Positions 1 to 38,527 of a stretch of 64,000 bases of DNA are shown here, in pieces. Source of the DNA: Nostoc sp. CENA543 (lineage in GTDB: Bacteria; Cyanobacteriota; Cyanobacteriia; Cyanobacteriales; Nostocaceae); assembly GCF_002896875.1 (NCBI RefSeq), contig NZ_CP023278.1:6516501-6580500 (forward strand), written 5' to 3'. The notes under the pieces were generated by a model. That model did not search any database, was not told where the DNA came from, and saw nothing but the letters and a program-made list of their open reading frames with translations. Every line of letters begins with the position of its first letter. The first letter of the stretch is position 1. Made by a program: the position numbers and the translations under genes.

Positions 1-1285
1 AAATCCCTTCATCAAAGTAGGGGTTTTGAGTGGAGGGAAGATTTAACTGCAAGCTACCACGGGCGAGGCGGGCTTGTCTCACACTTTGGGAAATGCTGAC
101 TAAGTTGTGTAATAGTTCGATGACATCGGGAGATTCTTTTTTCACGTCTCCCGCTAGTACCCCCTCGGCTTTGGCTTTGGTCAAGGCTGTGTCTACATGA
201 ATGACACTTGGTTGGATTTCCCATTCCAAGACTGCACCAGATTGGGCAGAGAAGGTGATTAAAAAGGAGATGGCCAGGCGATCGCTTTTGGGGACTAGGG
301 AACAACGCTCCGCCACTGCATCGGGTAACATGGGCAACACTAAATCACCCAAGTATACTGAACGACCTCGTTTTACTGCTTCCCTGTCTAAAGCTTCGTC
401 AGGCTGTATATAGTGGGAAACATCGGCGATGTGAAAACCTAATTGCCAGTTTCCTGCCACCGTTTTTTCTAGACTGAAGGCATTTTCTACTACCTTCTGG
501 TCATTATTTACTTCCGTAATAGCAAGCGTAAATAAATTACGTAAATCCAGTTTGTTTTTCAGGTCAGCCTTGAGCAGCCGTTTGGATAACTTAGAAGCTG
601 CATCGAGGATTGCGTCTGAAAAATTCCGAGATAAATCGTGTTTACAGGTAACTAAATCTATATCAGCTGCGGCTTCTGCGTCACTACCGAGAATTTGTAC
701 TACCCGACCGATGGGGGGATATTGGGCTAAAGGATAACGCAGCACTTCCACATGGGCGAGGTGGTCAAGGGCTTCCTCTAATTTCATGCCGTTAGTTAAG
801 ATTTTTAACTCAAACAGCAAACGGTCATCTAGGGGAACAGCCCGAAAACCACCATCTACTTGTTTAATCCGGGCGAGTAGAGTGTGATTAGAACGTTCTA
901 AAATTAACTTAACTTCCCCTTCTGGGGAACGGCGACGACTACCTTCTTTCAGGACTCTGACTAAAACGCGATCGCCATTCCAAGCATTACTCAAATGACT
1001 TTCACGGATATAAATATCCTCGGCCCCTTCGACATCTTGAATCGCGAAGCAAAAGCCCTTACTAGAACAACGTAGTTTAGCTTCAATTAGACCTTCTTCT
1101 GAAATGCGGCGATACTTACCCCGTTCCTTCGCCAATAGACCGATTTTCTCCAACACCTCCAAGGTGATGTGGAGTTTTTCTAAACTTTCTTCGTCCTCGC
1201 AACCGAGTTTTTTTTCCAAAACTTTGCGAGCTACCAATTTATCATCGGTGAAATTGGCAAGGAGTGTAGCGATTGAAAATTCCAT
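1..1285 (-). CDS. RNB-family (RNase II/R) protein, probably Zam-like, 3' end outside window
   Basis: N-terminal 428 residues of an RNase II/R-family protein; the rest lies beyond base 1. Translation shows an N-terminal winged-helix-like region, a cold-shock-like region (SSKGFCFAIQDVEGAEDIYI) and the start of the RNB domain, with the family signature HIADVSHYI at about residues 285-293 followed by GRSVYLGDLVLPMLP and CSLVPKSDRLA. The segment that in active enzymes carries the four metal-binding aspartates (TID..DARDFDDA in E. coli RNase R) reads AITEVNNDQKVVENAF here (residues 255-270), so the aspartates are missing. That suggests a non-exonucleolytic or altered paralogue, such as the cyanobacterial Zam proteins, rather than the housekeeping RNase R. 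The start ATG at 1283-1285 has a weak AAAGG-like sequence upstream. Family assignment is firm; the Zam assignment is inference. Confidence 0.85.
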   Translation of the reverse strand, partial: MEFSIATLLANFTDDKLVARKVLEKKLGCEDEESLEKLHITLEVLEKIGLLAKERGKYRRISEEGLIEAKLRCSSKGFCFAIQDVEGAEDIYIRESHLSNAWNGDRVLVRVLKEGSRRRSPEGEVKLILERSNHTLLARIKQVDGGFRAVPLDDRLLFELKILTNGMKLEEALDHLAHVEVLRYPLAQYPPIGRVVQILGSDAEAAADIDLVTCKHDLSRNFSDAILDAASKLSKRLLKADLKNKLDLRNLFTLAITEVNNDQKVVENAFSLEKTVAGNWQLGFHIADVSHYIQPDEALDREAVKRGRSVYLGDLVLPMLPDAVAERCSLVPKSDRLAISFLITFSAQSGAVLEWEIQPSVIHVDTALTKAKAEGVLAGDVKKESPDVIELLHNLVSISQSVRQARLARGSLQLNLPSTQNPYFDEGI

Positions 1286-35777: not shown

Positions 35778-36311
35778 ATGGTGTGGATATTTAGCTTATC
35801 AGCAGAATGTGGATCTGAAGAAATCATTGCCAGTAAATTTGCTCAACACTTTATGGGGCCAATATTGACGCTATCAAATGGTAGCCCATGCCTATGTCGT
35901 GCAGAAACTTTTCAAGATATCGAAAACAATTGGTGGTGTCGCGTTTACCCCAATAATATTAGTGAACTAGGAATAGATAGCCCTGAAAGTGCTTATTTAA
36001 TGACAGAATTAGGTATTCTACTCTATAAACATCTACGTACTGCCCTACAATTTCGTTATGCTTTAGTAGGTGTTGAAGTAGATGAATTTAGAACCTATAG
36101 TGAACTGATTGAAGACTTACCTAATTTATCTATACCAGGATTAGTGTTAGCAAAAAAAATTCAGCAGGAAGTTGAGGCATTACAAGTTTTTAGACTTTTT
36201 ACTTCTGGTTATGTTTGGCAACCTTATGAGGGAGAAATTTACAATCCATTAATGGCATCTCCAGACTTAAAAAATAAACTTGATGAACTTTTGGCTGCAA
36301 GTTTAACTTAG
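35778..36311 (+). CDS. Hypothetical protein (177 aa)
   Basis: Soluble protein of unknown family. It starts MVWIFSLSAECGSEEIIASK; the middle has a Trp/Cys-rich stretch (IENNWWCRVYP), followed by a helical region (AYLMTELGILLYKHLRTALQ) and acidic VGVEVDEFRTYSELIEDLP. No signal peptide or membrane segment. It lies 213 bases before the ParA-like gene on the same strand, in an AT-rich stretch, but no sequence evidence ties it to that gene. Could be an immunity- or adaptor-type protein; that is speculation. Confidence 0.65.
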   Translation: MVWIFSLSAECGSEEIIASKFAQHFMGPILTLSNGSPCLCRAETFQDIENNWWCRVYPNNISELGIDSPESAYLMTELGILLYKHLRTALQFRYALVGVEVDEFRTYSELIEDLPNLSIPGLVLAKKIQQEVEALQVFRLFTSGYVWQPYEGEIYNPLMASPDLKNKLDELLAASLT

Positions 36312-36524: not shown

Positions 36525-37382
36525 ATGACAGCTAAAGTTGTTAGTATTTGTAACCTCAAGGGTGGGGTAGGTAAAACTACGATAGTTATGGCTTTGGCAG
36601 AATATCTAGCAGGCGATACTATGTATCGCAAACGGGTGCTTGCAATTGATCTTGATCCTCAAACTAATTTGACTGGCGCACTGATGTCTGAAGAAGTTTG
36701 GGAAAAGCAATTTGAAAGTAGAAAAGCTACTTTGCCATATTTATTTAGAAACCCCGAAGATTTTCTAGAGAATTTTAAACAGCATAATTTTATAGTGAAA
36801 GAAAATATATCAAACGTCAGAAACAGAAATTCTTTTACTTGCTTACATCTTATACCTAGTAGTCCTAGATTATTTGAAATCCAGGAAGATTTACCATCAA
36901 ACTATTCTTCTATTAACTTAAAACCTGTTGATCTTATTCGGAAAATAATAAAACCTTTATTGGAAAATTATGATTATGTTTTAATAGACTGCCCACCAAA
37001 TATTAACCAAGTTACTAAAAGTGCATTCTTAGCTAGTGATGCTTGTATAATACCTTGCGTACCAAATAGAATGTCAATTCAGGGACTAGATTTATTGCTA
37101 GAACAAATTGATAAATTTAATAGAAATTATGTCCATAATCTAAAACCAGTGGGGACTTTAATCTCTCGTTATAACCGAACCATAGCCCAAAGTGAAAATT
37201 TACAATCAATTATTACAAATCCTTTTTATCCACACGTATTTCAAACCAAAATACTAGAAAGAGCAAGAATTGCGGAAGGTTTAGAATTGAGTAATTATTT
37301 GACATATAGACAAAAATATGACGATTCCCATAGTTCTATGGTAGAACTAGCCAAAGAGTTCATTCAAAGAGTAGGTAAATAA
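36525..37382 (+). CDS. ParA/Soj-family ATPase
   Basis: 285 residues. The deviant Walker A is LKGGVGKTT (signature Lys12, Lys17), the A' motif is VLAIDLDPQTNLTGAL and Walker B is DYVLIDCPPN, so dimerisation-dependent ATP hydrolysis should be intact. It lacks an N-terminal helix-turn-helix, as in chromosomal Soj and cargo-positioning ParAs rather than plasmid type Ia ParA. The stop codon directly abuts the ATG of the next gene (TAAATG), implying an operon. No recognisable parB or parS-like repeat is nearby, and chromosomal partition genes are not expected beside purL, so it may position another cargo. Confidence 0.9.
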   Translation: MTAKVVSICNLKGGVGKTTIVMALAEYLAGDTMYRKRVLAIDLDPQTNLTGALMSEEVWEKQFESRKATLPYLFRNPEDFLENFKQHNFIVKENISNVRNRNSFTCLHLIPSSPRLFEIQEDLPSNYSSINLKPVDLIRKIIKPLLENYDYVLIDCPPNINQVTKSAFLASDACIIPCVPNRMSIQGLDLLLEQIDKFNRNYVHNLKPVGTLISRYNRTIAQSENLQSIITNPFYPHVFQTKILERARIAEGLELSNYLTYRQKYDDSHSSMVELAKEFIQRVGK

Positions 37383-37802
37383 ATGGATTACTCACAAATT
37401 GCAAGTTTATTAAGGGCAATTGCAGATATTATAGAATCTGAACCCAAATTAGCTAAAGCTTTAGAAAAGCATTTAAGCAATCGTCTAAGCTCTCAATCAT
37501 ATAATAATTTACCAAATTCAAAACACAATTTTACCAACGATTCTAATAATTTAGAAAACGGTGATGCTGTATTAGCAGAATGTCGGCGAATCTTACGTGA
37601 ACAAGGTGAAGAAGAATTAAACATTTACCTGACTGAATTAGGAGAGCAGATTAGGGAATTATTAAAGTATGGCCAACTAGACAGAAATCGCTCTATTCGT
37701 CGGCGGAAAGACTTAAATAGTATTGTTGAGCATATTATTGAACAATTAGTAGCTCAAGATAAAAGTGGCAAAATATTTGCACGCACAATTTCTGAAGATT
37801 AA
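37383..37802 (+). CDS. Small partner protein of ParA-like ATPase
   Basis: 139 residues, family not recognised. The N-terminal helix (SQIASLLRAIADIIESEPKL) is amphipathic; an Asn/Ser-rich, probably disordered linker follows (about 35-60); the C-terminal half is highly charged and helical (AECRRILREQGEEELNIYLT, then RNRSIRRRKDLNSIVEHII). Zero-base junction with the ParA gene. Size, charge and layout resemble the small adaptors that load ParA ATPases on cargo (ParB-like or McdB-like), but there is no sequence signature to prove it. It is not a canonical ParB: no ParB/Srx motif. Confidence 0.75.
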   Translation: MDYSQIASLLRAIADIIESEPKLAKALEKHLSNRLSSQSYNNLPNSKHNFTNDSNNLENGDAVLAECRRILREQGEEELNIYLTELGEQIRELLKYGQLDRNRSIRRRKDLNSIVEHIIEQLVAQDKSGKIFARTISED

Positions 37803-37834: not shown

Positions 37835-38239
37835 TTATAAAATTAACCAATTTTCTAACTGTAAATCTTTCACTCTAGTTAAATCAGAATCATGAGAAAC
37901 TAAAATTAAATCATGAATTATAGCGGTAGCAGCTATCAAAATATCCGCATCCTGAATAATTTGACCTCTGCTGGTTAAATCAGCATGAATTTCTGAGGCT
38001 TTTTCAAAAATTTTGAGATCATCTAGAAATAATATAGGATAATCTTGGCAAAATTGTTGAAATAAAGCTAGTTTTTTAGTGGCATTACTTCTTAAAAGTC
38101 CTCTTTGGATTTCATAGTAAGTTATGCCACTAATCAAAATGTCTATTTCTAACCTACTTACCTCTTGCAATTTTAAGTTGATTTTGACATTTTGTTTTAG
38201 TGATGCTGAAACAATATTAGTATCTAATAAATAACCCAT
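37835..38239 (-). CDS. PIN-domain (VapC-like) toxin
   Basis: 134-residue PIN-domain ribonuclease. The acidic metal-binding set is Asp6 (YLLDTNIV), Glu43 (ITYYEIQRG), Asp97/Asp99 (IIQDADILIAA) and Asp117 (LVSHDSDL), all present, so it should be active; VapC toxins usually cleave tRNA or rRNA. It follows its antitoxin with stop and start codons directly adjacent. Its 3' end faces the ParA partner gene with a 32-base gap. Confidence 0.88.
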   Translation of the reverse strand: MGYLLDTNIVSASLKQNVKINLKLQEVSRLEIDILISGITYYEIQRGLLRSNATKKLALFQQFCQDYPILFLDDLKIFEKASEIHADLTSRGQIIQDADILIAATAIIHDLILVSHDSDLTRVKDLQLENWLIL

Positions 38240-38527
38240 CTAACCTCGTTTTACGGATTCGTCAAAAAGTTGCATTTGCTCTGGTGTCAAATCATTTAGC
38301 ATTCCTGAAACTAAATGTAAGGATAAAATCCTTTTAATACGTTTCGTCAATTCTTCCTCAGAGATGCTTTCCAGATCAGGAACAGCAGCCGGATCAAAAG
38401 TACGATTAATCATTGCAATCATTTCCTGTTTATTTAAGTTTTCCTGATAAAGATGATTATTGTCAATTAAGGTTTTGACAATTTCAGTTAGTCTCTGAGA
38501 ATTAGGTTGATGATTAATCAAAGTCAT
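38240..38527 (-). CDS. Putative antitoxin of the PIN toxin
   Basis: 95 residues, no recognised DNA-binding motif, though the middle (NKQEMIAMINRTFDPAAVPD) and the C-terminal LTKRIKRILSLHLVSGMLND could supply binding and toxin-wrapping segments. Assigned as antitoxin by position: first in the pair, with its TAG abutting the toxin ATG. Start ATG 38525-38527 is preceded by GAGGAAATT-like sequence on its strand, an acceptable ribosome site. Confidence 0.75.
   Translation of the reverse strand: MTLINHQPNSQRLTEIVKTLIDNNHLYQENLNKQEMIAMINRTFDPAAVPDLESISEEELTKRIKRILSLHLVSGMLNDLTPEQMQLFDESVKRG

Follow-up and report, generated by a model that had tools for sequence, protein, structure and literature searches.

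The locus examined here raises the question of what a ParA-type ATPase does when the gene directly behind it encodes a small protein that matches no ParB family. According to the available part of PMC10241942, the label of orphan is given to many ParA/MinD ATPases whose partners, by their diversity, escape recognition. The two genes lie in a window of 64,000 nucleotides (the whole stretch of DNA that was analysed, from Nostoc sp. CENA543), on a 7.0-Mb contig of a 7.2-Mb genome; our literature search, conducted mostly outside subscription papers, returned no paper on this ParA/partner pair. The features considered are the following.

36525..37382, + strand: parA-type ATPase gene, 285 aa, with KGGVGKTT Walker A and DLDPQ motif and no N-terminal HTH
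37380..37385, + strand: TAA-ATG junction, with the TAA stop at 37380-37382 and the ATG start at 37383
37383..37802, + strand: partner gene, 139 aa, with a helical hairpin (3-36), disordered linker (34-57) and C-terminal helices (57-128)
37383..37490, + strand: partner codons 1-36, N-terminal helical hairpin of the AlphaFold2 model, proposed ParA-contact part
37551..37766, + strand: partner codons 57-128, C-terminal helical domain of the AlphaFold2 model, proposed cargo-binding part

A ParA gene joined directly to a small partner gene

The Walker A motif KGGVGKTT occupies ParA residues 12-19 and fits the KGGXXK[S/T] pattern of ParA/MinD (deviant Walker A) ATPases; among proteins of solved structure its sequence comes closest to Soj/ParA (1wcv, E 1.9e-18, in an alignment that includes DLDPQ). 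The Pfam family AAA_31 scores 131.8 bits on this protein against a cut-off of 27, and since the match begins at residue 4 there is no room for an HTH; the N-terminal HTH extension that marks type Ia ParA proteins is absent from the 285-residue protein. The preliminary description of this DNA, made from the letters alone, had named the Walker motifs, the missing HTH and a TAAATG junction to a 139-aa reading frame, all of which are borne out, with zero bases separating the parA stop from the partner start. In four relatives (G003, G108, G088 and G090) the stop and start overlap by 1 base, and translational coupling of parA and partner across the junction is likely.

Both genes are under purifying selection. 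Between the window and G003, parA has accumulated 70 nonsynonymous and 92 synonymous changes (P 1e-23 against neutral evolution) and the partner 69 and 46 (fewer nonsynonymous than neutral, P 3e-6), and the partner counts between G003 and G108 are 14 and 17 (P 5e-5). This shortage of nonsynonymous changes, together with the homologues that stand behind parA elsewhere, indicates that the 139-aa frame is a real gene.

An old chromosomal slot and a partner that is often missing

We surveyed 145 genomes of the cyanobacterial family, taking 61% identity or more as the mark of a ParA orthologue. Orthologues are present in 18 genomes and the partner in 6, the window genome (G000) counted. Both genes are intact at 4 of the 18 orthologous loci (G000, G003, G088 and G108), and at 2 one gene is broken: the G066 parA has its first codons in another frame and one stretch missing beside an intact partner, and the G090 partner gene is split by an insertion. 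Partners 51-63% identical to that of the window lie behind parA in four other genomes, in one of which (G066) parA looks broken. At the other 12 of the 18 loci ParA stands alone. ParA matches occur in 22 genomes altogether, four of them without an orthologue: G099 and G063 hold decayed copies (an 85-residue fragment and a copy with five internal stops), G094 and G114 hold only a distant ParA, and G054 has a distant ParA in addition to its orthologue.

With the locus taken as 18 kb, or as 21 kb in the case of the window, either groEL or ureD lies inside it at 16 of the 18 orthologous loci, which identifies this as an old chromosomal slot; the two orthologues away from the urease/groEL neighbourhood are those of G066 (locus L043) and G034. 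The module is a long-standing resident of this slot in the cyanobacterial family. Across the phylum, 14 of 386 genomes have a ParA match at E ≤ 1e-35, all 14 from the same family, and 2 of 386 have the partner, whether the search uses profile A1 or profile A4; among the seven sampled genomes of the window's genus, only the window genome has the orthologue. The preliminary description had set residence mainly on plasmids with iteron-like sites against its own proposal, and the cyanobacterial genes point the other way: the window partner has no match at E ≤ 0.01 among plasmid records, the slot is chromosomal, and a search upstream of parA in five genomes, whose upstream regions are poorly conserved, found short repeats only, with no conserved ones seen. 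As queries, the window ParA and partner found nothing in viral contigs, and a pattern search of genome contigs with the partner was likewise empty.

In one lineage the loss of the partner can be traced. In the partnerless genomes G074 and G028, the 35 bases directly 3' of the parA stop match the start of the G003 partner gene at 29 of 35 positions, in register, codon 9 being a stop (the match scores 40, and none of 200 shuffles exceeds 32), which indicates that the partner was once present there and was then lost. These two genomes are sister to the partner-bearing clade in the ParA tree (support 0.93-0.94), a tree that is weakened by a recombinant G088 and a truncated G066. The parA genes of G074 and G028 differ by 10 nonsynonymous and 30 synonymous changes (departure from neutrality at P 1e-13), so that ParA is still selected without the partner and must either work independently of it or have another one. 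The partner has thus been lost in at least one lineage, and it is absent from others: DNA comparison gave no significant remnant at the other ten partnerless loci, a six-frame profile search of the partnerless loci gave none at all (the two remnants came from the DNA comparison), and a search of 15 genomes for a partner elsewhere in partnerless genomes yielded no credible candidate (E 0.22, 0.32 and 0.58 in three of them).

Comparison of G088 (L041) with G003 (L039) gives a dS of 0.98 for parA and 0.16 for the partner, with an identity of 1.00 in the last parA bin; the G088 parA was probably swapped by recombination, with a break near its 3' end and the partner kept. One group of partnerless ParAs (L046-L051) carries an extra C-terminal tail (APLMASLL, LLQMASLV), and a similar YNPLMAS stretch occurs in a 177-aa protein at window positions 35778-36308; as a fused piece of the partner, these tails were not significant against shuffles.

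Alphaproteobacterial, viral-contig and plasmid relatives of the pair

The window ParA matched at least 5000 plasmid records; among the 40 listed, the best was Rhizobium leguminosarum pRL1 (1e-41), followed by Methylocystis iwaonis plasmids (2e-31) and by a next distinct record at 2e-21. Both of the two best distinct records among those listed carry a related partner: the protein behind the pRL1 ParA has 131 aa and that behind the Methylocystis ParA, in the one of two records examined, has 156 aa, and both have the same build as the window partner. The pair of Methylocystis iwaonis pSS37A-Re-4 (WP_350356540.1/WP_281932772.1), annotated in its record as an AAA family ATPase and a hypothetical protein, has the gene order and near-zero spacing of the window.

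The relationship of the partners is supported by profile comparison. Aligned by hhalign, nine alphaproteobacterial partners (A2) and five cyanobacterial ones (A1) match at 92.1% probability (E 6e-7) over 125 collinear columns, with shallow profiles (Neff 1.6); the A2 HMM scores 27.7 bits on the window partner, against 10.1 for the best of 2000 shuffles. M1, G75, L79, L83, D100 and G129 are invariant in a 23-row alignment of the family, and the alphaproteobacterial members (124-156 aa, 18 rows aligned) are similar in length to the window partner and collinear with it. The window pair thus has the homologous partner directly behind parA that characterises the alphaproteobacterial module with its HTH-like ParA. 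The partner reaches beyond the cyanobacterial lineage: its relatives stand behind ParA in Alphaproteobacteria as well as on viral contigs and on repAB-bearing plasmids.

The partner family is rare. Matches to it comprise 10 genome-contig loci (all alphaproteobacterial by title), 3 plasmid records and 11 viral contigs; in the class to which G492 belongs, the family is present in 3 of 240 genomes, G492 counted, with one further doubtful partial match. The Rhizobium partner found nothing among phage records. ParA lies directly upstream of the partner in 20 of 23 related loci (8 of 10 genome, 10 of 11 viral and 2 of 2 plasmid loci), a count that concerns loci found through the partner, so that ParAs standing without it fall outside the sample. 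The exceptions are L069 and L072, where the partner's N-terminus is missing or rearranged as well, and L083, which lies at a contig end.

The alphaproteobacterial pairs, distributed over chromosomes, viral contigs and plasmids, are unlike the window pair in two respects. Their ParAs have an N-terminal extension that is HTH-like by eye (Pfam HTH_17 gives only E 0.14) and is absent from the window ParA and its cyanobacterial relatives, and their partners have a basic N-terminus, with 2-4 Lys/Arg in the first 12 residues of all 18 non-cyanobacterial rows aligned, a charge that known ParA/MinD partners also have (PMC10241942, available part). For the distant cyanobacterial ParAs of G094, G114 and G054, partners of 227 aa were considered as further members; they are suggestive only and are not counted, their profile A3 aligning with A2 at E 0.011 but a probability of 3.7%, and with A1 at E 0.27.

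Several of these relatives occupy mobile settings. In 5 of the 11 viral loci, virion genes confirmed with PHROGs lie no further than about 1.5 kb from the pair: head/protease in L081, terminase in L085, tail completion/neck in L087, portal in L088, and major head and minor tail in L089. The setting of L082 and L084 is one of virion genes by eye, and integrase, recombinase or repressor genes stand near the pair in L079, L081, L083 and L086. The viral collection is phage sequence by construction, so these loci show that prophage-type sequence carries the pair and give no frequency for it. Both plasmids examined have a separate repAB, annotated on the Methylocystis plasmid and recognised by similarity on pRL1 (60% and 43% identity), so that the pair is not their main partition system. 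Occurrence on chromosomes, viral contigs and repAB plasmids describes a scattered accessory two-gene module rather than a partition cassette belonging to one replicon.

Around 8 of the 10 genome loci (leaving out L065, a near copy of L066, and L069) we found 51 ORFs, of which one encodes an integrase and no two share a Pfam family; the pair therefore stands alone. An association with defence was rejected, as seven PADLOC models matched among these 51 ORFs, each in one member, without a common context.

Architecture and family searches of the partner protein

The partner was modelled with AlphaFold2 from 21 rows, at a mean pLDDT of only 66.2. In this model helices at 57-73, 76-95 and 111-128 follow the linker at 34-57, where pLDDT is below 50, and helix 3-19 is amphipathic with a moment of 0.55, a value matched by 0.3% of 2000 shuffles; the amphipathic N-terminal helix, disordered linker and C-terminal helices predicted from the letters are all recovered. 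ParA/MinD partners contact the ATPase via a charged N-terminus, the remainder of the protein serving the cargo, according to the available parts of PMC10241942 and PMC12204374, and by analogy with this general rule we infer that the hairpin (1-36) may touch ParA; the modelled C-terminal part (57-128) is proposed as the cargo-binding domain. The first 12 residues of the cyanobacterial partners contain one Arg (R11, invariant across the five cyanobacterial rows) and one Asp/Glu and are not basic, which argues against a simple copy of the charged-N-terminus rule. A basic loop, RNRSIRRRK, precedes the last C-terminal helix of the cyanobacterial partner; the net charge of this loop is +3 to +4 in cyanobacteria and -1 to +1 elsewhere, so DNA binding by it is unsupported outside cyanobacteria.

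Searches of the family libraries with the partner gave chance-level matches only (best Pfam E 0.012, best NCBIfam E 0.033), and PHROGs and PADLOC gave nothing at E ≤ 0.1. No ParB or RHH family was found in Pfam or NCBIfam up to E 10, a range in which the HMMER filters drop most matches above E 0.1, in agreement with the earlier statement that the partner has no ParB domain. The proposal of an undescribed ParA/adaptor pair therefore holds insofar as none of the four family libraries contains a significant match, and gives way insofar as the partner is not confined to one lineage and the pair is not obligate.

Several likenesses of fold were considered and set aside. Foldseek returned nothing below E 1 for either partner model (best 1.1 and 2.5). 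In the VIA search a single ribosomal protein, presumably eL36 from the chain letters, accounts for all of the 12 top rows (Z 4.7-6.2); the best, 6elz_i, is a weak match (Z 6.2, rmsd 2.2, 50 residues aligned, model positions 61..133), and a Z of 6.2 is within the chance range for a common helical arrangement. A SAP-like DNA-binding domain, suggested by the helix-loop-helix pattern of the C-terminal part, was rejected because Pfam has no SAP match and the Foldseek results are at E 1 or above. The cyanobacterial partner profile A1 (positions 6-86, window 37398-37640) resembles histone-fold NF-YB/HapC chains with a best E of 0.0026; these matches vanish with the single partner sequence and with the wider profiles A5 and A2 (the best PDB rows of these three queries are a designed protein at E 0.0064, SMC3 at E 0.08 and a designed protein at E 2.1), and the resemblance is for this reason probably due to chance.

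What the pair may do

We favour, at a probability of about one half, the reading that the pair is a positioning or partition-type system of a ParA-type ATPase and its cognate partner, belonging to a module shared with Alphaproteobacteria. In such a system an ATP-bound ParA dimer would sit on the nucleoid, the N-terminal helix of the partner would dock on the dimer and stimulate ATP hydrolysis and release, the flexible linker would tie this helix to the helical C-terminal domain holding the cargo, and the cargo would follow the ParA gradient. Judging from context, a DNA or mobile-element complex is a more likely cargo than an organelle, given that prophage-type contigs carry the module and so do plasmids with partition genes of their own; the relatives in these settings shift the balance away from the organelle-type cargo. 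Against this reading as a whole stand the 12 partnerless loci among the 18 with an orthologous ParA, which are odd for an obligate positioning pair, the lack of a basic N-terminus in the cyanobacterial partners, the basic C-terminal loop that is not conserved outside cyanobacteria, and the low-confidence partner model with no clear fold match. So do a viral set that is phage by construction, the single integrase and the lack of a recurring Pfam family among the 51 ORFs, and the absence of a match among phage records.

The strong constraint on ParA without its partner would fit a ParA that acts alone as an interference factor and disturbs the partition of incoming plasmids or phage-plasmids, with the partner as a dispensable tuning accessory, a role that we consider rather unlikely, though more probable than any of the other alternatives. 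It would also suit an accessory occurrence on viral contigs and repAB plasmids, and there is a precedent in ParI, an orphan ParA on a Pseudomonas putida genomic island that destabilises IncP-7 plasmids (PMC9178275, available part). ParI resembles the window ParA as an accessory ParA able to persist without ParB and would be the best model for a ParA working partnerless in mobile contexts; it differs in that the available part of PMC9178275 names no partner for it. Such a role sits poorly with the presence of ParA and partner together in 20 of the 23 non-cyanobacterial loci, which were found through the partner. Next in order, and speculative, is a mobile module of inter-element conflict borne by prophages, plasmids and chromosomes, in which capture of the partition machinery of rivals would mislocalise or exclude plasmids or phage genomes, and which the cyanobacterial family would have domesticated, some members keeping only ParA.

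We give somewhat less credence to a leftover or active DNA partition cassette from an integrated element, with the partner as an unrecognised centromere binder. The HTH-like ParA extension of the relatives on plasmids and viral contigs, the basic RNRSIRRRK loop of the cyanobacterial partners and the weak resemblance in structure between the C-terminal part and a ribosomal protein chain would all fit a centromere binder. Soj/ParA of ParABS chromosome partition has the deviant Walker A ATPase in common with the window ParA, but its partner is unrelated. Against such a cassette, the window partner matches no ParB or RHH family in the filtered Pfam and NCBIfam searches, and no parS or other conserved repeat was seen upstream of parA in the five genomes; the two plasmids examined have separate repAB, and 16 of the 18 orthologous loci share a chromosomal slot.

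The least probable of these alternatives is the McdAB-type system of the preliminary description, placing a protein cargo (a microcompartment or other large complex) on the nucleoid. The layout is the same, a ParA with a small non-ParB partner made up of helix, linker and helical tail, and both pairs occur in cyanobacteria, here in a chromosomal slot. McdB has an invariant Trp in a C-terminal motif, and McdB-like proteins have Tyr or Phe in their last five residues (PMC11321042, available part), whereas the window partner has no Trp, one Phe (132) in its last 20 residues and no aromatic in the last five; this Phe is not kept in the G003, G108 and G088 partners, whose C-terminal tails have no aromatic. 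The window ParA has KGGVGKT where McdA has SGGQGKT (Table 1 of PMC9178275, available part). No McdB chain appeared among PDB sequences at E ≤ 10 with A1, A5, A2 or the window partner, McdB being very divergent. The nearest of the seven BMC matches in the genome is 0.93 Mb away on a linear reading of the contig and 0.82 Mb on a circular one, so that microcompartment genes are at least 0.8 Mb off. Cyanobacterial mcdAB need not be linked to microcompartment genes. Relatives beside virion genes also speak against this type of cargo, and the identification of the partner as McdB was rejected, for want of the C-terminal Trp and of linkage to microcompartment genes.

The three strongest new findings are a partner family that spans phyla, its settings on viral contigs and plasmids, and a loss of the partner that can be traced while ParA is still selected. 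One unnamed partner family can now be tracked through two phyla, in settings that include the vicinity of virion genes, repAB plasmids and chromosomes, and its loci form a natural series running from intact pairs to a solitary ParA, a remnant of the partner being traceable. Together the family and the loss series make two matters testable: which cargo the partner reads, and what job ParA has after the partner is lost.

Neighbouring genes and other loci

On the Methylocystis plasmid (L060, NZ_AP027146.1 35158-38666) a multiubiquitin/E2/ThiF/DUF6527 gene group and a Fic gene adjoin the pair; the group looks like a bacterial ubiquitin-like conjugation system. Genes that are HicBA-like by eye stand behind parA in G074 and G028, the HicA-like one having no Pfam match. 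Three of the partnerless ParA loci (L047:11427-14096, - strand, L049 and L050) encode an 889-aa protein in which a ParA-like domain with a KGGVGR variant is fused to a Sll1717-family P-loop ATPase, and this fusion gene adjoins a 130-aa gene without family. The window genome has further ParAs of the McdA-type SGGQGKTT at G000:C3:7469-7945 and G000:C6:5622-6110 (L003 and L005), each with a small gene adjacent, which on these small contigs are perhaps plasmid partition loci. Between the ParA pair and groEL, a PIN-domain toxin-like gene at window positions 37835-38527 (- strand; Pfam PIN, E 6.7e-14) and the 95-aa gene upstream of it form a VapBC-like pair, and related PIN genes occur in the ParA loci of G077, G031 and G137.
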